Below, piece by piece: positions 10,515-57,480 of a stretch of DNA of 64,000 bases. A program made the translations under genes and the position numbers. The DNA is from Trinickia soli (lineage in GTDB: Bacteria > Pseudomonadota > Gammaproteobacteria > Burkholderiales > Burkholderiaceae), in assembly GCF_002879855.1 (NCBI RefSeq), contig NZ_PNYB01000027.1:1-64000 (forward strand), read 5' to 3'. Position 1 is the stretch's first letter. Each line of letters begins with the position of its first letter. The notes under the pieces are model-generated. The model saw only the letters and a program-made list of their open reading frames with translations. It did not search any database and had not been told where the DNA came from.

Positions 10515-10981
10515 TCGGGCCCGGGACGTGGGAAGCCGTACGCCCGCGCCGTGTCGAACGTTCGCTTTTTGCAAGCGCGCGCGCTATATTTTCAGGATAA
10601 CGAGGGCGCCCCGGCAGGGTTTTCTCTCTTGCGGCGCTGAGAATCGATTCAGTTACAATACGTGCCCGCTGCCAGGGCGGCGGGTTTGCACAGGCGCCGG
10701 GAAACCTTATCCGGACAAAGCCTAAACAAAAACAATCGAGACACCGAAAGATACGCGGCGGCAAATCGCGCGCATGCGCAAGGTTGGCTGTGTTGCGACG
10801 TATCGAAAGGGTAGAGGTACCCGAGGATCGGTTTCCAGAGGAGTTCGGCCCCGCATCGGCGCGACGGCGTCCAGACGGCCACCGGGCCGCGGGCGTTGGC
10901 GCCTTCATGGCACCGCTTGCGGGCAATACGAAAGTGCGGGCAATATGTACGGGTTTTGCCTCACATTGAAGAAGCACGCAG
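10515..10981 (+). promoter_or_regulatory. Long upstream region of dksA with a candidate promoter
   Basis: There is no convincing gene in these 467 bases. TACAAT at 10654-10659 could be a -10 box; the best -35 (TTGCGG, 10629-10634) is 19 bp away, so the match is weak. If it is used, dksA has a leader of about 315 nt, long enough for post-transcriptional control. GAAGAAG just before the ATG is the likely ribosome binding site. Confidence 0.4.
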
Positions 10982-11401
10982 ATGACGACGAAACGACTCT
11001 TGACCGAAGCCGAAATCCTGAAGATGAGCGAGAAGGATTACATGAACGAGGATCAGCTCGCCTTCTTCAAGAACAGGCTCGAACAGCTTCAGGCGGAGAT
11101 TCTCCGCAACGCTGGGCAGACGACCGAAAATCTGCGCGAAACGGTGATCGTTCCCGATCCCGCCGATCGCGCGACGATCGAGGAAGAGCATGCGCTGGAA
11201 CTGCGCACGCGCGATCGCGAACGCAAGCTGCTGAAGAAAGTGCAGCAGTCGCTGGCACGAATCGAGTCCGGCGACTACGGCTGGTGCGAAGAAACGGGCG
11301 AGCCGATCGGCATCCCGCGTCTGCTCGCGCGGCCTACGGCTACGCTGTCGCTCGAAGCCCAGGAACGCCGCGAGTTGCGCCAGAAGCTGTTCGGCGATTG
11401 A
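10982..11401 (+). CDS. dksA: RNA polymerase-binding transcription factor DksA, cysteine-poor form
   Basis: DksA enters the secondary channel of RNA polymerase and, with ppGpp, sets stringent control of rRNA and biosynthetic promoters. The 139-residue protein has the coiled coil with the tip motif DPADRA (Asp59, Asp62, Ala64). The zinc-finger region keeps only Cys102: the other three positions appear as Thr105, Ser123 and Ala126 within WCEETGEP and PTATLSLEAQ. It should therefore fold without structural zinc, like Pseudomonas DksA2. The upstream gene is a COG0523 zinc GTPase, which fits a zinc link. I think this form is common in Burkholderiaceae, so it may be the main DksA rather than a stress-only paralogue. 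A strong terminator follows. Confidence 0.95.
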   Translation: MTTKRLLTEAEILKMSEKDYMNEDQLAFFKNRLEQLQAEILRNAGQTTENLRETVIVPDPADRATIEEEHALELRTRDRERKLLKKVQQSLARIESGDYGWCEETGEPIGIPRLLARPTATLSLEAQERRELRQKLFGD

Positions 11402-11456
11402 CGCACCGGCTCGCGCGGCCCGATGCGCCGCGCATTTTCACGCTGCTTCTCACGAG

Positions 11457-11485
11457 GCGCGCGGTGTTCCGCGCGCTTTTTGTTT
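11457..11485 (+). terminator. Rho-independent terminator of dksA
   Basis: Perfect 8-bp stem GCGCGCGG / CCGCGCGC (11457-11464 with 11469-11476), TGTT loop, then TTTTTGTTTT. Confidence 0.88.
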
Positions 11486-11499
11486 TGTTGGCTTCGGTT

Positions 11500-11543
11500 C
11501 GGCCTTGATCCGGCCTTGATCCGCCCTTCATCCGGCCTTGATC
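11500..11543. repeat. Four tandem 11-bp repeats
   Basis: The unit CGGCCTTGATC occurs at 11500-11510, 11511-11521 and 11533-11543. A copy with two changes (CGCCCTTCATC) lies at 11522-11532. The array is between the dksA terminator and the hslVU promoter and codes for nothing recognisable. Confidence 0.9.
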
Positions 11544-47886: not shown

Positions 47887-48129
47887 TTACTGTGCCGCGT
47901 GGGACAAGTTGCATATTGTACCGCGCGGCACGAATGCCGGCCGGGTGGGCAGAATCCGGATAAGGCCGCGTTCGACATCGTCCCGCACGATCGAGTGCGG
48001 CAACACCGAAATGGCATGCCCCGCCGATCCCCATTGCAGGCCAAGCCGGCGTTGTGCATCACGCATGCGCCCGGGTACATGCTGATCACCGGTCTGCTCA
48101 ACACCGACTACGCCGTGATCTAGCGCCAA
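47887..48129 (-). pseudogene. Possible remnant of a LysR-type regulator (effector domain)
   Basis: An 80-codon minus-strand frame ends in a stretch like the C-terminal effector domain of LysR regulators (AISVLPHSIVRDDVERG, then LIRILPTRPAFVP), matching the usual G-hydrophobic-LP...LV..D...G.L...LP pattern. There is no upstream DNA-binding domain, no ribosome site, and the preceding bases do not continue the family. A decayed fragment is the best reading; chance similarity is possible. Confidence 0.4.
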
Positions 48130-48162
48130 AGCAAGGAAAGGCGGGCTGCGCCGGACGATCGG

Positions 48163-48792
48163 CTAAGCGGCGCAGCGGAGCAACAGCCCTTCCAGATGCT
48201 CGTCGTCGATTCCGTGCGCGCGCAGCGCCGTGACCGTCTGGACCAGATAGTCGAGCGCGCTGCCGTGCTTGCCCACGGCGTGTCGCAGCACGTGTCGAAC
48301 CAGCGGATCCGAAACGTCGCTCGCCCGATTGAACGCGCGGCGCTGCAGTACGAACGCGAGCGCCATCACCTGACGCCCATCGGCGAGCACGCACGCCAGC
48401 CAGCAGGGCCGATATGAATCCATAACGAGTTCACGTCTCCAAAGGATTGCCAGCGCGGCCTCCGCCTGAGCGGAATCGATCCGATGGGCCACGCCTTGGC
48501 ACCGCCCTCCCTCGTCGAGCGCCAGTACCAACCCTGGCGCTTCAGGGGTCCCTCGACTCAAACACGACCACAGGCACAACCCGCGATGATATCCGTCGAC
48601 GACGGCGCCGACCGTTTCGGCAACCGGTAGATCCGGGCGCCAGATCAGCGAGCCGTACGCAAAAACCCAGAGCGGCGCGTCGGGCGGGCGGGCGGCCATC
48701 GTTTCGTGGAGCAGCTGTTCGCGATCGCCGTCGCTCAGATAGCGCAGCGTCCCGAGTTCCGGGGGATAGATGAACGAAGCGTCATCAGTCAT
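48163..48792 (-). CDS. ChaC-like gamma-glutamylcyclotransferase
   Basis: A 209-residue protein of the ChaC/GGCT family, which cleave gamma-glutamyl peptides such as glutathione to 5-oxoproline. The substrate-binding YGSLIWRP motif is at residues about 46-53, and the catalytic-region Glu lies in RRELVMDSYRP. The ATG overlaps the end of the class V aminotransferase gene by eight bases (48785-48792), so it is the last gene of the halogenase operon. With the GST gene upstream it may process glutathione conjugates of the pathway; that role is inferred. Confidence 0.87.
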   Translation of the reverse strand: MTDDASFIYPPELGTLRYLSDGDREQLLHETMAARPPDAPLWVFAYGSLIWRPDLPVAETVGAVVDGYHRGLCLWSCLSRGTPEAPGLVLALDEGGRCQGVAHRIDSAQAEAALAILWRRELVMDSYRPCWLACVLADGRQVMALAFVLQRRAFNRASDVSDPLVRHVLRHAVGKHGSALDYLVQTVTALRAHGIDDEHLEGLLLRCAA

Positions 48793-50155
48793 GTGCGTGT
48801 CGTCGCTCGAGTGTGCGGGCCAGTTGCCGGGCGCATGTCACGAAATGATCCACCTGCTCGCGCTGCGTCCACACGCACGCGTTGGCGCGGTGGGGGTGGG
48901 CCAGCGGCTTGGGTTTCAGCCCGTACGGATCGCGGTTGGGGATCACGCCAGGCTTGAAGGCGCAAGGCGTATCGTCGGCTAGCGCGGGCCATCCGGATGG
49001 GCCCAACGCCCCGCCCGAAATCCTGATCCGGTATTGAGTCAAAAGCTGCTCGCGGAATGTTTCGTTCAACGAGAGGCTCTCTCGGTGAGCCTCTCTGACG
49101 AATGGATTGAAGGCAACGATTCCGGAGGCGAGCGTAACGTCAGCCGTCGGCTGAAGCAACGCCTGCGGGCCGAACGCCTCAGCGATGCGCTCGCGCATAT
49201 AGTCCGCCAATCCGAGGATCCAGGCTTCGATACGCACGCGGCCGATTTCATCCCAGCGGCGACAGACATTCGACAGTGCATGCCAGAGCGCGCCCTCGGG
49301 CGCGCCGGATTGCGTCAGCGCAGAGCCGATGTCGAACCCCTCGGGCCGCGACCCGTCGAAAGGAACGTCTCGCATAGCGGCGCTGCGGATCAAGTGCAGG
49401 TGAGGCAACGGATTAGGATTGGCCTCGCTAACCCGGTTGCGGGCATAGAGCACGCCGGTGCCGCCCGGCCCGCACTGCCACTTGTGGCCGCTAAAGGCCC
49501 AAAAGTCGACACCGCTCGCAGATAGCTCCGGCGCGAGCATGCCGGCGAAGTGCGCGCCGTCCACAACCGTGATGATGCCGTGCGCCTGCGCGAGCTGCGC
49601 CAATGCGCGCTCGGGCATGCGCATGCCGTTTGGCCACAGCGGTGAGGAAAAAAACAGCAGCTTTGTCCGGCCCGGTCGGATGCGGCGCGCTACGGCCTCC
49701 ACGATACCTGCCGCGGTTGCCTCGGCGGGCTCCGGCAAGCCGAATACGCGGATGGCCACGCCGTAGCGGCACGCAATCCGCGAGAGCGTGGCAATGCCCG
49801 CCGGATGCTCCAGCGGACTGACGAGCGCCTCGTCGCCCGGTTGCCAATCGATGCCCATCAATATCTGCGTCAAGGCATCGGTCGCATTTCGCGTGATCGC
49901 GATCTCGTCGACGTGGGCGCGATAGCCGCGCGCCACCGCCTCGCGCGTGGCCCGCGGATCTTCCGCATGGATGCGAAATGGATCTCGCGCCAACGCGTCG
50001 ATGTCCTCCTTCAAGCACCGCAGGACGGGAGCGGGCATGGAGCCCTTCTGGCCGGCCATCAAATAGATCACGTCGGGATTCAGAACGAACTCGCGAGAGA
50101 ACGTGCTGAAAAACGGCTCTTCGCGGTCCAGCAGGCAGGAAGCGAGATCAGACAT
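48785..50155 (-). CDS. Class V PLP-dependent aminotransferase/lyase
   Basis: A 456-residue fold-type I enzyme of the class V group that includes isopenicillin N epimerase-like, EgtE-like and cysteine-desulfurase-like proteins. The PLP lysine is Lys225 in FSGHKWQCGPGGTGVLYAR, and the PLP-binding Asp/His lie in VVDGAHFAG. Other motifs are ITRNATDALTQIL and SPLEHPAG. It could be a transaminase, racemase/epimerase or C-S/C-N lyase; sequence alone does not decide. It lies between GST and ChaC-like genes in the halogenase operon, which would suit a C-S lyase acting on a thiol conjugate. Confidence 0.85.
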   Translation of the reverse strand: MSDLASCLLDREEPFFSTFSREFVLNPDVIYLMAGQKGSMPAPVLRCLKEDIDALARDPFRIHAEDPRATREAVARGYRAHVDEIAITRNATDALTQILMGIDWQPGDEALVSPLEHPAGIATLSRIACRYGVAIRVFGLPEPAEATAAGIVEAVARRIRPGRTKLLFFSSPLWPNGMRMPERALAQLAQAHGIITVVDGAHFAGMLAPELSASGVDFWAFSGHKWQCGPGGTGVLYARNRVSEANPNPLPHLHLIRSAAMRDVPFDGSRPEGFDIGSALTQSGAPEGALWHALSNVCRRWDEIGRVRIEAWILGLADYMRERIAEAFGPQALLQPTADVTLASGIVAFNPFVREAHRESLSLNETFREQLLTQYRIRISGGALGPSGWPALADDTPCAFKPGVIPNRDPYGLKPKPLAHPHRANACVWTQREQVDHFVTCARQLARTLERRHAHD

Positions 50156-50180
50156 GGGGCGCAGGCGATCGAAAAACGCG

Positions 50181-50804
50181 TCAGTTGAGGCGGTCGATCA
50201 ACGCACCGAGCAGGCCTTCCTGAGTCAACGCTTCGCGTACGGCGGGGCGTTCGAGCATGCACGCGGCGAACGCTTTCAGGTGCGGATAGGCGCTCAGGTC
50301 CACCTCGAAGCGAGGCATCCAGCTCACGATCGTGAAGAGATAGGCATCGGCTACCGTGAACGATTCGCCCGCCAAAAACGGCGTCCTACCGAGGCGTTCG
50401 TTCACTTCGGCCAAACGGCGGGTAATTTTGCCGCGCGCGATGGTCGAGGTATCGGGCCCCATCTCGGCGCGGGCGTAGAAGCACTGCTTGTGGAGTTCGG
50501 TGGCGATGAAGGCCAACCACTGCCGGACGCGATGGCGCGCCATGGTGTCGGTCGGCATCAGGCTCGCGGACGGCGCTTCGTCGGCCAGCCACTCCAGGAT
50601 GACCGTGCCCTCCGTCAACAACTCCCCGTCATTAAGCTTGAGCGCCGGCACGTAGCCGCGCGGATTGATCCCGAGAAAGTCTTCGCCGCTCTCGGTCCGG
50701 TGCGTCTTCAGATCGACCTTGACGAGTTCCAACGGAATGCGGCCTTCCTTGGCGACGATGTGGGCTGCCAGGGAACTCACGCCGGGGCTGTAATAAAGCT
50801 TCAT
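50181..50804 (-). CDS. Glutathione S-transferase
   Basis: A 207-residue two-domain GST of the bacterial beta-class type. It has an N-terminal thioredoxin fold (MKLYYSPGVSSLAAHIV, PRGYVPAL with the cis-proline, LTEGTVILEWL with the Glu-Thr binding glutathione) and an all-helical C-terminal domain with the N-capping FTVADAYLF. The Ser in SPGVSS may activate glutathione (beta-class enzymes usually use a Cys at this position). Lies between the antiporter and class V enzyme genes in the halogenase operon. Confidence 0.92.
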   Translation of the reverse strand: MKLYYSPGVSSLAAHIVAKEGRIPLELVKVDLKTHRTESGEDFLGINPRGYVPALKLNDGELLTEGTVILEWLADEAPSASLMPTDTMARHRVRQWLAFIATELHKQCFYARAEMGPDTSTIARGKITRRLAEVNERLGRTPFLAGESFTVADAYLFTIVSWMPRFEVDLSAYPHLKAFAACMLERPAVREALTQEGLLGALIDRLN

Positions 50805-50857
50805 ATGCTAGCGACTCCTTGATGTGGGACGGAATGAAGAGAAGCGGCGCGCCGACG

Positions 50858-52213
50858 TTACTCGCGTGCGGCGGCTATGCCCAGGACCTCGGTTCTGACC
50901 CGCTCCGGCGCGATCAGGCGGCGAATCAGCGGCGTGGCAACGAGCGTGCTCACCAGCGCCATGACGACGAGGATGGTGAACATTTGCTTCGGCAGTACAC
51001 CGAGGTCGTACCCGATATTGAGCACGATGAGTTCCATCAGGCCCCGTGTGTTCATGCAAATGCCTACGACGAGCGCACAGCGGCGATCCTCGCCCGCTGC
51101 GCGGGCCGATAGATAGGCGCCGCCGAACTTGCCGCCGAAGGCAACGGCGCAAACCGCCGCACAGACCAGCCACGCTTGCCCGTCGTGCAACGCGCTCACG
51201 TCGGTGCGCAGTCCCGTGTAGACGAAGAAGATCGGCAGAAGGATCGTGTCGACGACGCTGCTGACCCTTTCCTTCCATAGTTCGACGAAGATCCGGTCCT
51301 CGTGCAGGGCGAAGCCGAGAATGAAACCGCCGATGATGGCGAACACGCCCAGACGGCTTGTAATCTCGGCCGACACGAGCAGGCCGAGCAGCATGACGCC
51401 TACCGCGCGCTGCGACAGCCGGCGCGGCATACTGACGTGTCGACGGATCTGGCGCAGCGCAAAGGGCTTGACGATCGTAAGAACGACGACGATGTACACC
51501 ACGAGCGCGACGATTCTCGTTACCAGGCTGCCGAGGTCGAATGCGGAACTAACGATTGCGCCCGCCACGCCCAGAACGAGCCAGCCCGCCACGTCGTCAA
51601 TCGCGGCCGCGCCGATGGTGAGGGCTGCCGTACGCGTGTGCGACGCATGCAACTCCATCATGATGCGGCCCAGGATGGGAACGGCTGTGATCGACATTGC
51701 CATGGCGAAGAACAACCGGAATGCCGGCAGGCCGGGCCGCACGTCGGGCAAATGCGACCAAAACCAAGGCGCGGTCCAATAGCCGAGCGCGAACGGCAGG
51801 GCAATGCTGCCGATGCTGATCATCGTCAGCGCGCGCCTCGATTGCGACAAGCTGCGCTTGAATTCGAACTCCAGCCCGATCTGGAACATCAGCATGACCA
51901 ACCCCAACTGAGAGAGGCCAAGGAAGATCGTGGAGGTCGACGGCGCGAACAGGTCGTGCATCACGTTAGGGAACAACGCGCCGAACAGGCTCGGCCCCAA
52001 CATCAGCCCAGCCAGGATTTCGCCGGCCACGGCCGTTTGCCCGAGCACGCGTGTGCCGACCCACACCGCCACGCGCGTCACGGCCAGTATCACGATGAGT
52101 TGCAGCACAAACAGACAGGTGAGTTGTTCGGCGCTGCCGCCTACGGCCGATCGGGATGCCGTAATCGCGTGCACGACCGCCGCGTAGGCGGCGGCACTCC
52201 AGGTCTCCAACAT
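50858..52213 (-). CDS. Cation:proton antiporter (CPA2 / KefB-like)
   Basis: A 451-residue membrane protein with about 12 helices, of the monovalent cation:proton antiporter 2 family. Conserved stretches are AGLMLGPSLFG, GLVMLMFQIGLEFEF, AAIDDVAGWLVLGVAG (the exchange-site Asp pair) and GICMNTRGLMELIVLNIGYDLG. No RCK/TrkA-N domain is present. In the operon it may extrude ions or protect against cytoplasmic acidification; such transporters also occur in natural-product clusters as exporters or pH homeostasis genes. Specific role unknown. Confidence 0.88.
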   Translation of the reverse strand: MLETWSAAAYAAVVHAITASRSAVGGSAEQLTCLFVLQLIVILAVTRVAVWVGTRVLGQTAVAGEILAGLMLGPSLFGALFPNVMHDLFAPSTSTIFLGLSQLGLVMLMFQIGLEFEFKRSLSQSRRALTMISIGSIALPFALGYWTAPWFWSHLPDVRPGLPAFRLFFAMAMSITAVPILGRIMMELHASHTRTAALTIGAAAIDDVAGWLVLGVAGAIVSSAFDLGSLVTRIVALVVYIVVVLTIVKPFALRQIRRHVSMPRRLSQRAVGVMLLGLLVSAEITSRLGVFAIIGGFILGFALHEDRIFVELWKERVSSVVDTILLPIFFVYTGLRTDVSALHDGQAWLVCAAVCAVAFGGKFGGAYLSARAAGEDRRCALVVGICMNTRGLMELIVLNIGYDLGVLPKQMFTILVVMALVSTLVATPLIRRLIAPERVRTEVLGIAAARE

Positions 52214-52258
52214 GTCGGTTTTCCCAGGTTCGTGGTTAAAGTGCGCCGCAGCAGCGCG

Positions 52259-53932
52259 TCAGACGCTTTCCGGCTGCAGTAGCGCCCGGAATGCGGACTT
52301 CATGAAAGGCATGGCGCCGTAGTCGAAGTACTTGCGGCGGACCGTTGCCGGCGCGCCAACCTGGCGCCACCAGAGAAACTGCATGTGCGATAGAAACGAG
52401 TTGGTCAATGTGTACCGGCGCTCGGGGACATGCAGATTCAACGTGGGAGGGACGGACTTCGCCGTCGCCACCCAGTCGTGAATGGCCTGCGCAGCCGCGC
52501 GCGGACTTTTGAGGCCCTGGCGGGCCGCGCCGATCTCGGCCTCGCAGGCAGTAAATATCGTCTCGAACTCTTCGCTGTCCGGAGCGATGGAGCCGGGCCA
52601 ATCGGCGCGATACAACCCGCGGTACAGGCTGCTATCGCCGGAATTGGAATACTTGGACATCAAGCGCCCGATACGCAAGCTGTCGATGGTGACGCCAAGC
52701 AGCCAGACGCGCGACCAAGCGTTCCACAACTCGAAGTCCATGAAAGAGCCGTAGGAGCCGTTGACGAGCCGATCGTTGTAGTCCGTCAAGTCGGCTTGCA
52801 ATTGCGCGATATCCTCGAAGAACGCGTACGAGAAGTCGCCCCTGGCGACGGCCTGCGGAATGCGCTCGGCCAGCGCATGCACCATGTAGAACGTATTCGC
52901 GATGCCGCGCGAGTGCAGCGCGTCGATAAAACCCCCAGCGTGTCCGAGCAGGAAGAATCGCTCCCCCGCTTGCCGCTCCGAGTTATATTGCAGCCGGCCG
53001 GTCGCAATCCAGTTGCGCACGGCGCGCGCATCCTTGAATTGACATTCCATCGAGGGGAAGCGTCGGACGTACTTCCAGAATTCTTCCTCGGCACTCAGCG
53101 AAGGATCGCGTTGGAATTTGGTCCCGTCCAGGTTGACGCCGACGCTGCACAGCGGGTTGGTCGCCGAGTCGTGATTGCCGAAGGGGATGATCCAAAACCA
53201 TCCGCCATCGAAAATATGGTGCAGCGTCCCTTGCGACCAGCGCTCCGGCATACCGTGGCGCTGGCCCGGCGGCAGACAGGTTTCGAACGGATGGACGTCG
53301 ATCATGTGCGAGAACACCGACCAGGAATTGGTACGGCTGCGCACGGGCGTCTGGCGCATCTGGAATTTCTCGGCCAAAAGCGAGCGCGTGCCGCTCGCAT
53401 CCACGACATACCGCGCGCGCAGCGTTTCTCCCTTGTCGGTCACGAGGGCAACGCCGTCGGGTTCGATCTCCACTTCCTTGACGTGCGTGTCGGGTCTCAG
53501 CTCGGCGCCGTGTCTAACCGCGGCAAACGTGAGATAGGCATCGATGTCCTGCCGGTAGAGATGCGATTCGGGGCCGTGCGGTAGACGCGGGATAGGCGCC
53601 TGGGTGGCTTCCTCGACGCGGTGCGCTTCGTGGGGCCGATGGTAGACGAAGCCGAAATGTTTCTTCACGCCGCATGAGGCGGTGACGTGTTTTCTGAGCC
53701 CATGAAAACTGCTGCAATTGAGAATCTCCGGCACGTCGTACTGCTGAGCGATGATGCGCAGCATCTGCGAAGACCGCGGCACCATGGACTCGCCGATGGC
53801 GAAGCGCGGATGGCAGCTATTGTCGACGATCAGCACGCTCAGGTTCTGGCGAACCAGCGCGCAGGCTAGCACCGAGCCGGCCAAACCGGAGCCGAGGATG
53901 ACGACGTCATGCATGGAAGCCGATCGACTCAT
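52259..53932 (-). CDS. FAD-dependent halogenase
   Basis: A 557-residue flavoprotein of the FADH2-dependent halogenase family, which use reduced flavin, oxygen and halide to make hypohalous acid. The FAD-binding GSGLAG is at residues 14-19, GES at 47-49, candidate catalytic Lys residues in GVKKHFGF (90-91), and the halogenase hallmark WFWIIP (WxWxIP) at 245-250. The later motif FIDALHSRG differs from the usual F-D-P-x-S-G by an Ala for Pro. A helical C-terminal region of about 180 residues follows. Start ATG 53932 has GGTGAA seven bases ahead. The substrate is unknown; the lack of carrier genes favours a free aromatic or amino-acid-like substrate. Bromide or chloride use cannot be told. An FAD monooxygenase is possible, but WxWxIP argues for halogenation. 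Confidence 0.85.
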   Translation of the reverse strand: MSRSASMHDVVILGSGLAGSVLACALVRQNLSVLIVDNSCHPRFAIGESMVPRSSQMLRIIAQQYDVPEILNCSSFHGLRKHVTASCGVKKHFGFVYHRPHEAHRVEEATQAPIPRLPHGPESHLYRQDIDAYLTFAAVRHGAELRPDTHVKEVEIEPDGVALVTDKGETLRARYVVDASGTRSLLAEKFQMRQTPVRSRTNSWSVFSHMIDVHPFETCLPPGQRHGMPERWSQGTLHHIFDGGWFWIIPFGNHDSATNPLCSVGVNLDGTKFQRDPSLSAEEEFWKYVRRFPSMECQFKDARAVRNWIATGRLQYNSERQAGERFFLLGHAGGFIDALHSRGIANTFYMVHALAERIPQAVARGDFSYAFFEDIAQLQADLTDYNDRLVNGSYGSFMDFELWNAWSRVWLLGVTIDSLRIGRLMSKYSNSGDSSLYRGLYRADWPGSIAPDSEEFETIFTACEAEIGAARQGLKSPRAAAQAIHDWVATAKSVPPTLNLHVPERRYTLTNSFLSHMQFLWWRQVGAPATVRRKYFDYGAMPFMKSAFRALLQPESV

Positions 53933-53940
53933 GGCGATGT

Positions 53941-54309
53941 TCACCGAAGAAAGTAGTGAATTTCGAGCAACAGGCAGCCCTGCTCGGATTTGAACGGACC
54001 GTGATGAACACCGGGCGGCCGGCAGGCATAGGTATGGGGAGCGAACGGCGTTCCCCCTTGTCCGTCGGCGTCGTTCCCAACGATGAGATCGCCGCTGAGC
54101 AGGTAAACCTCTTCGTAATAGCCATGAACGAAAGGCTGAGTGGTGTGCGTGCCGGGCGCGAAGCGCAAGAGCCGTGTGCGATGCCCGATCCTGGCTCGTT
54201 CGTCCAGGCTGCCGGCCAGAATCTTCTGGGTGATCCCAGCGGGATAGCCGGGAGGCGTCGCCCATCCGGCCGACAGATCAACGGGGTGGAATTCCTTGTG
54301 CTCTGACAT
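53941..54309 (-). CDS. Cupin-domain protein
   Basis: A 122-residue single-cupin protein. The first conserved motif, THTTQPFVHGYYEEVYLLSG, holds the candidate metal-binding His and Glu residues, and the second motif is RPPGVHHGPF. It ends eight bases before the halogenase start and begins 37 bases after the DUF2848 stop. Small cupins may be dioxygenases, isomerases or cyclases; the position suggests it modifies the substrate before or after halogenation. The exact reaction is unknown. Confidence 0.82.
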   Translation of the reverse strand: MSEHKEFHPVDLSAGWATPPGYPAGITQKILAGSLDERARIGHRTRLLRFAPGTHTTQPFVHGYYEEVYLLSGDLIVGNDADGQGGTPFAPHTYACRPPGVHHGPFKSEQGCLLLEIHYFLR

Positions 54310-54346
54310 GGGCGTATTTGAGCCTTTGAGTGGTTGGGCCCAGGCG

Positions 54347-55021
54347 TCAATCGAGCGTCTGAACGCCGTACCGGCATTCGATCCGTCGATTCAGCACCGG
54401 GTCATGCAGTTCGCAGATAAATTCATCGGCCTGAGCCCAACCCGAAAGCAGGGGCACGGTGCCGCAAAAAACGAGGCTCTCGTCGAGATTCACTTGCTCG
54501 GCCTCGCACAGCCCCAGCAGTGTGTCCGGCGGCAAGATGGCTGCCACGGACGCGCACTGGTATGGCATGCGGTGTCCCTTGCGCACGGCGTAAGAGCGCA
54601 GTTGCAGACGATCCCAATGGGCTTGCAGGTCCGAGAATCGCCACAGCGCCGGCCCGATAGGCTTGGCACAGCATTGCTTGGAGGCCGGCACGCTGAGCGT
54701 CTCGAGCGCACGACAGGTATGGTCGGATCCGATACCGACCCATAGATGGCCGCCGAGCCGCGTGAGCACGAATTCCGCCTCGCCGCTCGTGCGCTCGCCT
54801 TGCACCTGGATCACGTCTTGTTGCGTGAGAAGCGAAGCGGAGACGCGATAGACAAGCGGCGTCCTCAAAGGCGGCGGCACACCGAGTTTCGCCAGCTCTT
54901 CGATATGAGCTTGGAGCGTGGCCGGGTCGCGCCCGGTCCAGCCGGCGATCGCCAGCTTGCTGGGCGCCAGCGCGACGCGTGTCGGTTCGCCTTCGCGGGG
55001 CAGGCATTGCAAGTTGAGCAT
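54347..55021 (-). CDS. DUF2848 family protein
   Basis: A 224-residue protein that resembles the DUF2848 family, a group with distant similarity to fumarylacetoacetate hydrolases. Characteristic stretches are AIAGWTGRDPATLQAHIEEL, LGVPPPLRTP, VIQVQGERTSGEAEFVL and VGIGSDHTCRALE. No function is established; the fumarylacetoacetate-hydrolase fold suggests hydrolysis or decarboxylation of a keto acid. Start ATG 55021 is two bases after the aminotransferase stop, so the two are tightly linked; a keto acid made by the transaminase could be its substrate (inference). Confidence 0.8.
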   Translation of the reverse strand: MLNLQCLPREGEPTRVALAPSKLAIAGWTGRDPATLQAHIEELAKLGVPPPLRTPLVYRVSASLLTQQDVIQVQGERTSGEAEFVLTRLGGHLWVGIGSDHTCRALETLSVPASKQCCAKPIGPALWRFSDLQAHWDRLQLRSYAVRKGHRMPYQCASVAAILPPDTLLGLCEAEQVNLDESLVFCGTVPLLSGWAQADEFICELHDPVLNRRIECRYGVQTLD

Positions 55022-55023
55022 CG

Positions 55024-56217
55024 TCAGATTCCTCGCAGAATCGCGGCAGCCTGGTCCAAGGTGTCGTCTTTCTTCGCGATGCAAAAGCGCAGCTGCCGCG
55101 ATGTTTTCGGACATGCACCGAAGCCGGACAAGGGCAGCGCGGCAACCCGGTGCTCCTTGAGCAGGTATTCGCTAAAAGCCGTGTCGGCATCGTCGCTGAT
55201 GCCCGCGTAATCGAGCAGCTGAAAATACCCGCCCTGGCTCGGCTGCCAGGCGAAGCGCGAGCCTTCCAGGCCCGACAGAAATCGGTCACGCTTGCGCTGG
55301 ACGAACGAGCCGAGCGAGCGATAACTGTCGGCTTCGGACAAGGCCGCCGCCGCCGCATGCTGCAACGGCGTGGACGACGCATACGTGACGAACTGATGCA
55401 GCTTGCGCAGTTCGTCCGTCACGGCCGCAGAGGCCACCACATAGCCCAGGCGCCACCCCGTGACGTGAAGGATCTTGCCGAGCGAACCAATCATTGCCGA
55501 GCGATCGACCAACGCCGGCTGCGACCACGCGCACACGTGCCGCCGCGGCGGAATCGCCATGGAGTGGTACACCTCGTCGCTCATCACCTGAAATCCGTGC
55601 ATGTGGGCCAGCATGGCCAGCATCTGCATTTCGGCCCTCGGCCAACACGTGCCGGTGGGGTTGTGCGGGTTGTTGACGACGACAAGACGCGTACGCGCAT
55701 TGAGACGGGCACGAAAGTCGTCCCAGTCGGGCAGGTGCCCCGCAGTCAGAGACACGCACACGGGAGTTGCCCCTGCAAGCCGGATGGCCGGCTCATAGCA
55801 TTCGAACGCAGGGGAAAAGAAGATCGCTTCGTCTCCCGGACGCAACATGGCCTGTGCCGCGACGAAGATGGCCTCCGTCGCGCCCGCCGTGATCGTCAAT
55901 TCCGTTGCCGGGTCGATCTTGACGCCGTGCAGATCCTCCAGCATGCCGGCCACGGCTTCGCGCAGTTCCGGCACGCCCTCGGGCGCGGCATATTGGTGCA
56001 TTTGCGGCATGCGTGCCGCATGCTCCAACGCTTCGAGCAAACGCGAGTTGGGCGAGAAATCAGGAAAACCCTGCGCCAGATTGAGCGCCCCGTGTCGGAG
56101 CGCTTCCTTGCTGTAACGGGCAAAAATCGAGCCCTCATTTTGCGGTAACCGCGACCAACCCGTTCGTTGCAGCATGTCGAACTCGTTTTGTAGTCGAAAA
56201 GGTAACCCCGCGCGCAT
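55024..56217 (-). CDS. Class I/II aminotransferase (YbdL/kynurenine aminotransferase-like)
   Basis: A 397-residue fold-type I transaminase. The PLP lysine is Lys248 in SLGKILHVTGWRLGYV, and NPHNPTGT (184-191) and SDEVYH (213-218) bind PLP. The sequence around the lysine fits the methionine/aromatic (YbdL, KAT) branch, which act on methionine, kynurenine or aromatic amino acids. Start ATG 56217 is uncertain because no clear ribosome site is visible; ATG 56175 is an alternative that would remove 14 residues. It is the second gene of the halogenase operon and could generate an aromatic keto acid. Confidence 0.9.
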   Translation of the reverse strand: MRAGLPFRLQNEFDMLQRTGWSRLPQNEGSIFARYSKEALRHGALNLAQGFPDFSPNSRLLEALEHAARMPQMHQYAAPEGVPELREAVAGMLEDLHGVKIDPATELTITAGATEAIFVAAQAMLRPGDEAIFFSPAFECYEPAIRLAGATPVCVSLTAGHLPDWDDFRARLNARTRLVVVNNPHNPTGTCWPRAEMQMLAMLAHMHGFQVMSDEVYHSMAIPPRRHVCAWSQPALVDRSAMIGSLGKILHVTGWRLGYVVASAAVTDELRKLHQFVTYASSTPLQHAAAAALSEADSYRSLGSFVQRKRDRFLSGLEGSRFAWQPSQGGYFQLLDYAGISDDADTAFSEYLLKEHRVAALPLSGFGACPKTSRQLRFCIAKKDDTLDQAAAILRGI

Positions 56218-56290
56218 CGGTTACGACACGCGGCGACGCACGAAAGGACGGGTTCGTCGAGGGCGAATTCGGGAGTGAATTCCGGTGCGG

Positions 56291-57205
56291 CTATTCAGGC
56301 GACGTGCTTGCCGACGCTACCGATGGTGCGATGCCACGCACCTTGGCAATCAACGACCAGGCAAGGCCAGCCCCGATCGCGGCGGTGCCGAGCATGACGA
56401 GCGGAGTGGCCGGTTCGCCGAGCAGAAAGACGGCCAACCCGACGCCGAAAGGCGGTACCAGCGCGGTGAACATGGACGCCTTCGCGCCCAATTCTCTAAC
56501 CGCGAGATTGATCAGCGTGACCGCGCCGATACTCACACCGACGCCTAGATACAGTGCCTGCAATATCAATTGCCGCCAGTCCGTGTGAAATACGGCAAAT
56601 CCCTTCAAGGCCAGATAAGGCGCCACGTAAATGACGGCACTCATTTGAACAATGCCCACCACGGCGAAGGGGTCCGCTTTCCAGCGGCGCACGAGCAGAA
56701 GATAGACGGCCCATATGAGCGCTGCGAGCACGAACAGCACATCGCCGCGCCACGCGTGAGGCAACGATTGGGTGTTATGGCCCAACACATTGGCAAAGCC
56801 GACGATGACGACCCCGCCAACCAATAACGCCAAGCCGGGAAGAGGAATATGTTCGGAGCGCCCCACGAGCCACTTCATCAGCAGCGCGCCGAAGATAGGC
56901 GTCAAGGCAGGATAAATAAGCGAACTATGCGCCGCCGGAGCCCAAGCAACACCACCGATGAGCACGAGGCTGTAAAGCGGGCCTGCCGCCAGCATCAACA
57001 CCGCCGCACGCCCCCAGCCGAGGCCGAATGCGTCGCGACCGCAGCGGCGAACCACGTACGGCAGGAGCAACAGGCCGCTCGTCGCATATCGCAAGAAGGT
57101 CTGATCGACAGCCGTGAGGCCGGCGTGATAGCCGAACTTGGAAACCACAGGTTGTCCAGCCCAAATCAGCGCCGCCAGTATTCCATACAGTACGGCAAGC
57201 CGCAT
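56291..57205 (-). CDS. EamA/DMT-family exporter
   Basis: A 304-residue, ten-helix transporter with two EamA repeats (MRLAVLYGILAALIWAGQPV, then DVLFVLAALIWAVYLLLVRR). Members export amino acids and other small metabolites. Start ATG 57205 is set by AGGAGAGG four bases upstream; an earlier in-frame ATG would add a non-helical Arg/Cys-rich segment. First gene of the halogenase operon, so probably exports the pathway product or a toxic intermediate (inference). Confidence 0.9.
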   Translation of the reverse strand: MRLAVLYGILAALIWAGQPVVSKFGYHAGLTAVDQTFLRYATSGLLLLPYVVRRCGRDAFGLGWGRAAVLMLAAGPLYSLVLIGGVAWAPAAHSSLIYPALTPIFGALLMKWLVGRSEHIPLPGLALLVGGVVIVGFANVLGHNTQSLPHAWRGDVLFVLAALIWAVYLLLVRRWKADPFAVVGIVQMSAVIYVAPYLALKGFAVFHTDWRQLILQALYLGVGVSIGAVTLINLAVRELGAKASMFTALVPPFGVGLAVFLLGEPATPLVMLGTAAIGAGLAWSLIAKVRGIAPSVASASTSPE

Positions 57206-57330
57206 TGTTCCTCTCCTTTCGGCAACGAATATGCAGCACGGGACAGCGTATCGGAGGGCGGACCGCCAAGCCATTCCAATCTCTTATGTCGTAATTCTAA
57301 TTAGCTAAGATTGATTGAAAATAATCGAAA

Positions 57331-57405
57331 ATGGCTGGACTGGATGATTGGAGATTTTTATTAGTACATCGCCGGCCGCCCGCCCCGTCGGAACACCCTC
57401 GGTAG
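57331..57405 (+). pseudogene. Possible LysR-regulator N-terminal stub
   Basis: A 24-codon frame begins MAGLDDWRFLLV, which resembles the start of LysR-type regulators (L-D-D-L/W-R-x-F), and then runs into unrelated Pro/Arg-rich codons and a stop. It is divergent from the halogenase operon, where a LysR regulator is often found. The match is short and may be chance. Confidence 0.25.
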
Positions 57406-57442
57406 CGCGCTCGCCGGCGATTAGAAAACGATTTTACCGCAC

Positions 57443-57463
57443 TGCTCGAAAGCGTTTCGAGCA
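57443..57463. repeat. Perfect 21-bp palindrome downstream of htpX
   Basis: TGCTCGAAA and TTTCGAGCA flank a GCG centre. It lies 18 bases past the htpX stop. No T run follows, so it may be a weak terminator, an mRNA-stabilising hairpin or an operator. Confidence 0.6.
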
Positions 57464-57480
57464 TAAGCAGCGCATTAACA

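Follow-up and report, generated by a model that had tools for sequence, protein, structure and literature searches.

A nine-gene, operon-like halogenase block without PKS or NRPS genes between htpX and rsmB in Trinickia soli

Gene content and genomic setting

We analysed the first 64,000 nucleotides of contig NZ_PNYB01000027.1 of Trinickia soli (assembly GCF_002879855.1, a 6.1 Mb draft in 103 contigs), hereafter called the window. It carries a block of nine genes, among them one for a flavin adenine dinucleotide (FAD)-dependent halogenase, which we tentatively read as a pathway for a small halogenated metabolite that would be made independently of polyketide synthases (PKS) and nonribosomal peptide synthetases (NRPS). 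According to an open reading frame (ORF) check of the window, the nine genes fill positions 48163-57205, all on the minus strand, to which all coordinates of the block and its flanks below refer unless the plus strand is named. In transcription order they encode an EamA-type exporter, a class I/II aminotransferase, a DUF2848 protein, a small cupin, the halogenase, a CPA2 cation:proton antiporter, a glutathione S-transferase (GST), a class V pyridoxal 5'-phosphate (PLP) enzyme and a ChaC-like gamma-glutamyl cyclotransferase, with gaps of 73, 2, 37, 8, 45, 53, 25 and -8 bases. Order, strand, a largest gap of 73 bases and one overlap had been given in the same way in a preliminary description made from the sequence alone, and the operon-like layout proposed there is borne out by the spacing: the halogenase ATG lies at 53932, 8 bases past the cupin stop, and the class V and ChaC genes overlap by 8 bases. 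On account of this spacing we expect the nine genes to form one transcript; promoter- and terminator-like sites did not score above shuffled sequences.

Each of the nine proteins matches its Pfam family above the cut-off. The first, a protein of 304 aa (56291-57205), was assigned as an EamA-type exporter by Pfam (EamA, E 1.1e-19), its ORF and its spacing. The Pfam search found no PKS or NRPS gene among the nine, in agreement with the preliminary description, nor a dipeptidase family, an importer or an amidase, two exporter-like genes being present instead; a mobile-element gene was likewise not seen among them. The operon reads as a mosaic of three modules, namely aminotransferase, DUF2848 protein and cupin (module A), halogenase and antiporter (module B) and GST, class V enzyme and ChaC protein (module C).

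The flanking genes htpX and rsmB adjoin in 10/10 other genomes of the genus, where their aligned parts are at most ~250 bases apart, and none of the nine genes was found in the ~3.9 kb htpX-rsmB stretches compared in these ten genomes. In the window htpX and rsmB are ~9.6 kb apart. Given this arrangement in the ten other genomes, T. soli carries the block as an insertion; it was either gained here or lost in the others, gain being the simpler course. According to the genus comparison the left edge of the insertion lies in the region between htpX and the operon (57206-57480), which also contains a promoter-like site (57321-57294) not above shuffles, and the right edge lies between the operon and rsmB (47900-48162). 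The G+C content of the block (63.1%, vs 63.8% in the rest of the window) gives no sign of a foreign origin. On the plus strand between the ChaC gene and rsmB an open stretch (48031-48122) ends in ITHAPGYMLITGLLNTDYAVI and a stop, and is possibly the end of a gene lost at the insertion edge. Elsewhere in the window, two ORFs (517-2415 and 10774-11508) have third-position G+C contents of 0.58 and 0.50, vs a mean of 0.74 for ORFs outside the block, and are possibly acquired or not real genes.

The halogenase lies on its own branch and has an unusual pocket residue

The fifth gene (52259-53932, 557 aa; Pfam Trp_halogenase, E 1e-17) had been described before as encoding a halogenase-type flavoenzyme, and both structure-database similarity and phylogeny place it with known halogenases. 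The nearest solved relatives in the PDB are the tetracycline 7-halogenase CtcP (E 2e-121) and the phloroglucinol halogenase PltM (E 5e-100), the similarity extending over nearly the full length. The GxGxxG motif is present as GSGLAG at residue 14 and the WxWxIP motif as WFWIIP at residues 245-250 (53183-53200); both motif columns are conserved in the 29 aligned rows, except for one row that starts later. Lys90 (codon 53663-53665) is aligned with PltM K87 and CtcP K98. A catalytic role of this lysine is described in the relevant passages of PMC6424973 and PMC12400496, and the K87A variant of PltM is inactive according to the former. In the tree of 29 rows the window enzyme falls into a group of 23 that includes PltM, CtcP and PrnC (support 97/99), and by these comparisons it belongs to the PltM/CtcP/PrnC halogenase clade. 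While it shares the clade, the catalytic lysine and WxWxIP with PltM and CtcP, no PKS genes lie alongside, and it occupies a deep branch of its own without a firm sister; several rows, its own included, are long, and the bootstrap is not fully settled.

The putative substrate pocket differs as well. Arg53 (codon 53774-53776) takes the place of CtcP Gln61, a residue lining the substrate site (passages of PMC12400496), and arginine occurs there in 0/28 of the other tree rows. Judged by the offset from the lysine, Arg53 also matches PrnC E60, proposed as a key residue in the corresponding part of PMC10770391. Together with Val414 it replaces a Glu and Ser pair in PltM and a Gln and Ser pair in CtcP. 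From the pocket arginine we infer that the substrate is probably acidic.

Genome searches were carried out on samples with E-value cut-offs, comprising 11 genomes of the genus, 398, 200 or 249 of the family, 330 of the order, 364 of the class and 398 across the phylum. Among the 398 family genomes, the only further matches to the halogenase at E 1e-60 or better were a second one in the T. soli genome itself (42% identity), those in 23 other genomes (42-43%) and one at 38%, and no other match at E 1e-70 was found in the 398 genomes across the phylum. Thirteen tree rows form one tight clade (100/100), made up of 10 Burkholderiaceae loci from ten of the 23 family genomes, the second T. soli copy (L153), the copy of genome G003 (L155) and that of the annotated Azotobacter prn cluster (L147). 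A scan of 84,980 species yielded two relatives (41% and 31%); as it detects a protein only where one of six 8-residue patterns is matched exactly, it may by our estimate miss relatives far below ~85% identity. A further halogenase-like flavoprotein is encoded on contig 37 of the T. soli genome (L161:7735-9231), ~25% identical to the operon enzyme and outside the PltM/CtcP/PrnC group.

CPA2 antiporter genes recur near halogenases of the clade

Directly after the halogenase follows the CPA2 antiporter (50858-52213; Pfam Na_H_Exchanger, E 3e-46). A Kef-type glutathione-gated channel was considered and rejected, the transmembrane domain being the only one found by Pfam. Homologues of the antiporter at a cut-off of E 1e-20 are present in 8 of 16 other halogenase stretches, 0.2-6.2 kb from the halogenase, vs 0/52 control stretches taken from around cupin, DUF2848 and class V genes (Fisher p 1.7e-6, the loci not being independent, since the eight represent roughly four kinds of cluster: three of prnC type, three type II PKS clusters of Streptomyces, genome G218 and Streptomyces NBC_00239). 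One DUF2848 control (L203) has a weaker match under the cut-off (26.6%, E 1e-14). In Streptomyces NBC_01003 the antiporter gene is located directly upstream of the halogenase gene, and in a prn-type cluster of T. soli itself it directly follows the Rieske gene in the prnD position; the Burkholderia pyrrocinia prn stretch has no antiporter. Among the ten literature matches listed, the word antiporter occurs in the cladoniamide paper and in no other.

The T. soli cluster just mentioned (contig 6, L153:1501-8756) is of the pyrrolnitrin type and encodes PrnA-like and PrnC-like halogenases, a Rieske protein and the CPA2 antiporter; the PrnA-like match contains one TAG. In genome G218 (L156:8094-11078) a PltM-like halogenase, grouping with PltM at 100/99, is followed by a class III aminotransferase and preceded by a CPA2 antiporter.

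Aminotransferase, DUF2848 and cupin genes form a rare group

The aminotransferase (55024-56217; Pfam Aminotran_1_2) is of the methionine/kynurenine-aminotransferase type, scoring 418.5 bits with NCBIfam NF006569, just below the cut-off of 420, and having YbdL as its best PDB match (E 1e-88). In the tree it groups with the aminotransferases of genomes G008 and G030 (100/99), apart from five plasmid-derived aminotransferases.

The DUF2848 protein (54347-55021; Pfam DUF2848, E 1.5e-67) is the only PF11010 match in the genome, and the name DUF2848 was not found in the open-licence literature searched. When a profile of 34 DUF2848 members was compared by hhalign with 11 FAA_hydrolase proteins of the T. 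soli genome, a probability of 78.8% and E 1.7e-5 were obtained. A profile search of the PDB gave E 0.16 at best, five of the nine matches being named as enzymes of the fumarylacetoacetate hydrolase (FAH) type; one more, 1nkq, is likewise an FAH-type enzyme. FAH enzymes carry an E-x-E...D metal site, and E81, E83 and D100, identical in 34/34 DUF2848 members, would form such a site here. At position 103 the window protein alone has Cys where the others have Asp. We regard the DUF2848 protein as a probable distant relative of the FAH superfamily.

The third member is the small cupin (53941-54309; Pfam Cupin_7, E 6e-7, 29.6 bits at a cut-off of 27), 44-73% identical to 23 relatives in which H62, E66, E67 and H103 are invariant, and present in 35/249 family genomes, T. 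soli included. Structure prediction from its single sequence reached a predicted local distance difference test (pLDDT) score of 40.5.

The full triple recurs in one congener, G008 (locus L119), with the same order and strand and identities of 51.5%, 49.5% and 70.9% for aminotransferase, DUF2848 protein and cupin; the DUF2848 proteins of the two loci group together (Shimodaira-Hasegawa (SH) support 94, FastTree). The G008 locus differs in that a major facilitator superfamily (MFS) transporter follows and nothing in the 16 kb fetched matched the halogenase, the GST, the class V enzyme or ChaC. In one further genome, G030, aminotransferase and cupin genes lie together, with a DUF2848 gene on another contig. 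Of the 36 other cupin places in the 249 family genomes, 20 were inspected with their surroundings, as were 20 of the 23 other DUF2848 places in the 330 order genomes. The 20 cupin loci contain an HpaB-type hydroxylase in 17 cases, DUF2848 in 17 and a relative of the window aminotransferase in 2; the 20 DUF2848 loci contain an amidase in 12 cases, a cupin in 2 and an aminotransferase of the window type in 0. In view of these counts a catabolic pair seems to have given rise to module A as a rare offshoot.

A widespread cluster (L075:2905-12142 and 17 of L113-L132; such clusters come from Caballeronia, Thioclava, Roseateles and genomes of Burkholderiaceae) has an HpaB-type hydroxylase, a flavin reductase, the cupin, often an amidase, DUF2848 and an ABC importer, and also a MarR regulator and an IscS-type desulfurase. 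The resemblance to the operon lies in the cupin (up to 74% identity) and DUF2848 (~41-47%), yet these clusters have a two-component hydroxylase for the halogenase, an importer for the exporter and an amidase for the aminotransferase. On a plasmid of Bradyrhizobium sp. 187 (L077:5705-8372) successive genes encode an FAD monooxygenase, DUF2848 and a cupin, an arrangement that may parallel the operon's halogenase, cupin and DUF2848 genes. Degradation of pyrrole-2-carboxylate was considered as a role for the HpaB clusters and set aside, nothing on it being found among the open-licence literature matches listed. Degradation of the auxin indole-3-acetic acid (IAA; iad/iac) was rejected as a source of the cupin and DUF2848 pair: iad is presented as a Rieske system in the relevant portions of PMC12633357, PMC9613470, PMC10374108 and PMC11630574, whose main texts have 0 occurrences of the word cupin, and no Rieske protein is among the nine. 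The indole clusters (ind/iif) were set aside as well; the corresponding portions of PMC12538310 and PMC6221969 describe a two-component flavin oxygenase, a short-chain dehydrogenase and a cofactor-independent oxygenase, with 0 occurrences of cupin.

These neighbourhoods lend some weight to a catabolic or detoxifying operon, in which aminotransferase, cupin and DUF2848 protein would break down an aromatic compound or an amino acid, the flavoenzyme would oxidise it in place of the hydroxylase of the related clusters, and antiporter, EamA protein, GST and ChaC would protect the cell. The hydroxylases (17/20 cupin loci), amidases (12/20 DUF2848 loci) and importers beside the relatives point in this direction, as do the Bradyrhizobium monooxygenase adjoining DUF2848 and cupin and the lack of a flavin reductase beside the halogenase. 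However, the flavoenzyme has the lysine and motifs of a halogenase and sits in a halogenase clade, and the nine genes comprise two exporter-like genes instead of an importer, amidase or regulator. We regard the catabolic operon as rather unlikely.

GST, class V and ChaC genes and the unity of the block

Module C is the least supported part of the operon. The GST (50181-50804; Pfam GST domains) is Beta-class-like and passes the NCBIfam GstA model by 1.4 bits (199.4 bits, cut-off 198). Its position 10 is Ser where the best solved relative has Cys10, the characteristic functional residue of Beta-class GSTs. The class V enzyme (48785-50155; Pfam Aminotran_5) resembles C-S lyases and cysteine desulfurases, its best PDB match being the cystine C-S lyase C-DES (E 1e-27), and has the PLP-enzyme lysine in an SGHKW motif at 222. 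In 200 family genomes 10 others match at E 1e-30 (36-37%), four of which, inspected with wider flanks (L157-L160), show no other operon gene; at E 1e-60 there is no other match in the 364 genomes of the class. On plasmids, 38% identical relatives occur in Streptomyces, and the locus of this kind labelled L080 has no other operon gene. The ChaC-like cyclotransferase (48163-48792; Pfam ChaC, E 6e-31) shows weak PDB similarity to human-type GGCT2 (E 9e-10). The genome holds two more ChaC matches, with which it shares 64.6% and 53.8% identity. No other genome or locus sampled showed GST, class V and ChaC genes together.

The nine genes might also be three small gene groups that were inserted together or successively and share no pathway. 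The modules do not travel together in the other loci examined, ChaC has close paralogues in the genome, and the gaps of 37-73 bases could fit separate promoters. Against this, the genes lie on a single strand with gaps of -8 to 73 bases, the cupin stop and the halogenase start are 8 bases apart, the class V gene overlaps the ChaC gene, and modules A and B interleave without a break; we consider unrelated modules an improbable account.

A glutathione route to a thiolated halogenated product, resembling the way sulfur is inserted into gliotoxin and able to overlap with the pathway that we favour, would have GST add glutathione, ChaC remove the glutamyl residue and the class V enzyme cleave the C-S bond. 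The three genes are the last of the block and closely spaced, but the trio was not met elsewhere in the searches made, and ChaC enzymes mostly act on free glutathione. The conjugation and trimming suggested in the preliminary description gained no independent support, given the Ser for Cys10 in the GST, the absence of a dipeptidase gene among the nine and two ChaC paralogues in the genome, and such a route seems unlikely.

Relation to described systems

That the gene set is not a described pathway, as first supposed, agrees with the open-licence literature, where no description was found among the matches listed. Among the closest systems is that for pyrrolnitrin (prnABCD in Burkholderia, Azotobacter and contig 6 of T. 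soli), a PKS/NRPS-independent halogenated metabolite made from an amino acid, as we propose for the operon product. PrnC is 41-42% identical to the operon halogenase, and a CPA2 antiporter follows the prn cluster in T. soli and Azotobacter. In contrast, the operon has a relative of PrnC (42%) and lacks the tryptophan halogenase PrnA, PrnB and the Rieske protein PrnD, while the prn stretches examined have no homologues of its aminotransferase, DUF2848 protein, cupin, GST, class V enzyme, ChaC or EamA protein. Module C bears a likeness to the sulfur-insertion genes gliG, gliK, gliJ and gliI of gliotoxin, in which a GST, a gamma-glutamyl cyclotransferase and a PLP C-S lyase occur together with a dipeptidase; that pathway is a fungal NRPS pathway, whereas the operon has neither dipeptidase nor NRPS and a PLP enzyme of a different fold class.

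A possible route to a halogenated carboxylate

Our favoured interpretation, to which we give a probability of roughly 0.45, is that the operon serves to make, without PKS or NRPS, a small halogenated metabolite with a carboxylate group and to export it. With transamination, FAH-like and cupin chemistry and halogenation assigned from protein families, a module-built operon inserted between htpX and rsmB might work as follows. The aminotransferase would convert an amino acid to a 2-oxo acid. FAH-like enzymes act on 2-oxo acids, and the probably FAH-like DUF2848 protein could, with the cupin, its usual partner in clusters of catabolic appearance, alter this acid through tautomerisation, hydration or cleavage of a bond. 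The halogenase would then chlorinate or brominate a free carboxylate-bearing intermediate, its unusual pocket Arg53 holding the acid, and the CPA2 antiporter and EamA protein would provide tolerance and export. GST, class V enzyme and ChaC may handle a thiol, either to add sulfur to the halogenated electrophile or to protect the cell from it, although any sulfur step is conjectural. In its most specific form, a rewired catabolic aminotransferase/FAH-like/cupin cassette joined to an Arg-pocket halogenase would yield a halogenated 2-oxo-acid or amino-acid derivative that is glutathione-thiolated by GST, ChaC and a class V C-S lyase and then exported, a new type of PKS/NRPS-free pathway; this we consider quite doubtful.

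Several observations weigh against a common biosynthetic pathway. The complete nine-gene set was not seen in any other sampled genome. Of the co-occurrence proposed as a check in the preliminary description, the recurrence of aminotransferase, DUF2848 and cupin genes and the antiporter near 8/16 halogenases hold; an outcome named there as refuting, lack of co-occurrence, nevertheless applies in part, since the 16 halogenase stretches contain no homologue at E 1e-5 of the seven remaining genes (EamA, aminotransferase, DUF2848, cupin, GST, class V and ChaC), and the antiporter itself is absent from eight of these stretches. The cupin tree leaves the window cupin unplaced, not with the cupin of G008. 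As most examined DUF2848 and cupin relatives sit in degradative-looking clusters, the direction of the pathway is uncertain. The block contains no regulator gene, and Pfam found no flavin reductase among the nine proteins, though several related loci encode one; the annotated B. pyrrocinia prn stretch has no flavin reductase either, and resident flavin reductases can serve such halogenases.

Few halogenases use free small molecules as substrates outside assembly lines, and those that do are useful biocatalysts; the operon enzyme represents a branch of its own, with an altered pocket. The operon also offers a foothold on the roles of DUF2848 and its cupin partner, both of which stand here beside an aminotransferase and a halogenase. 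Finally, the repeated neighbourhood of CPA2 antiporters and halogenases of this clade suggests a shared function in tolerance or export, which could be tested in the pyrrolnitrin-type cluster of T. soli itself.

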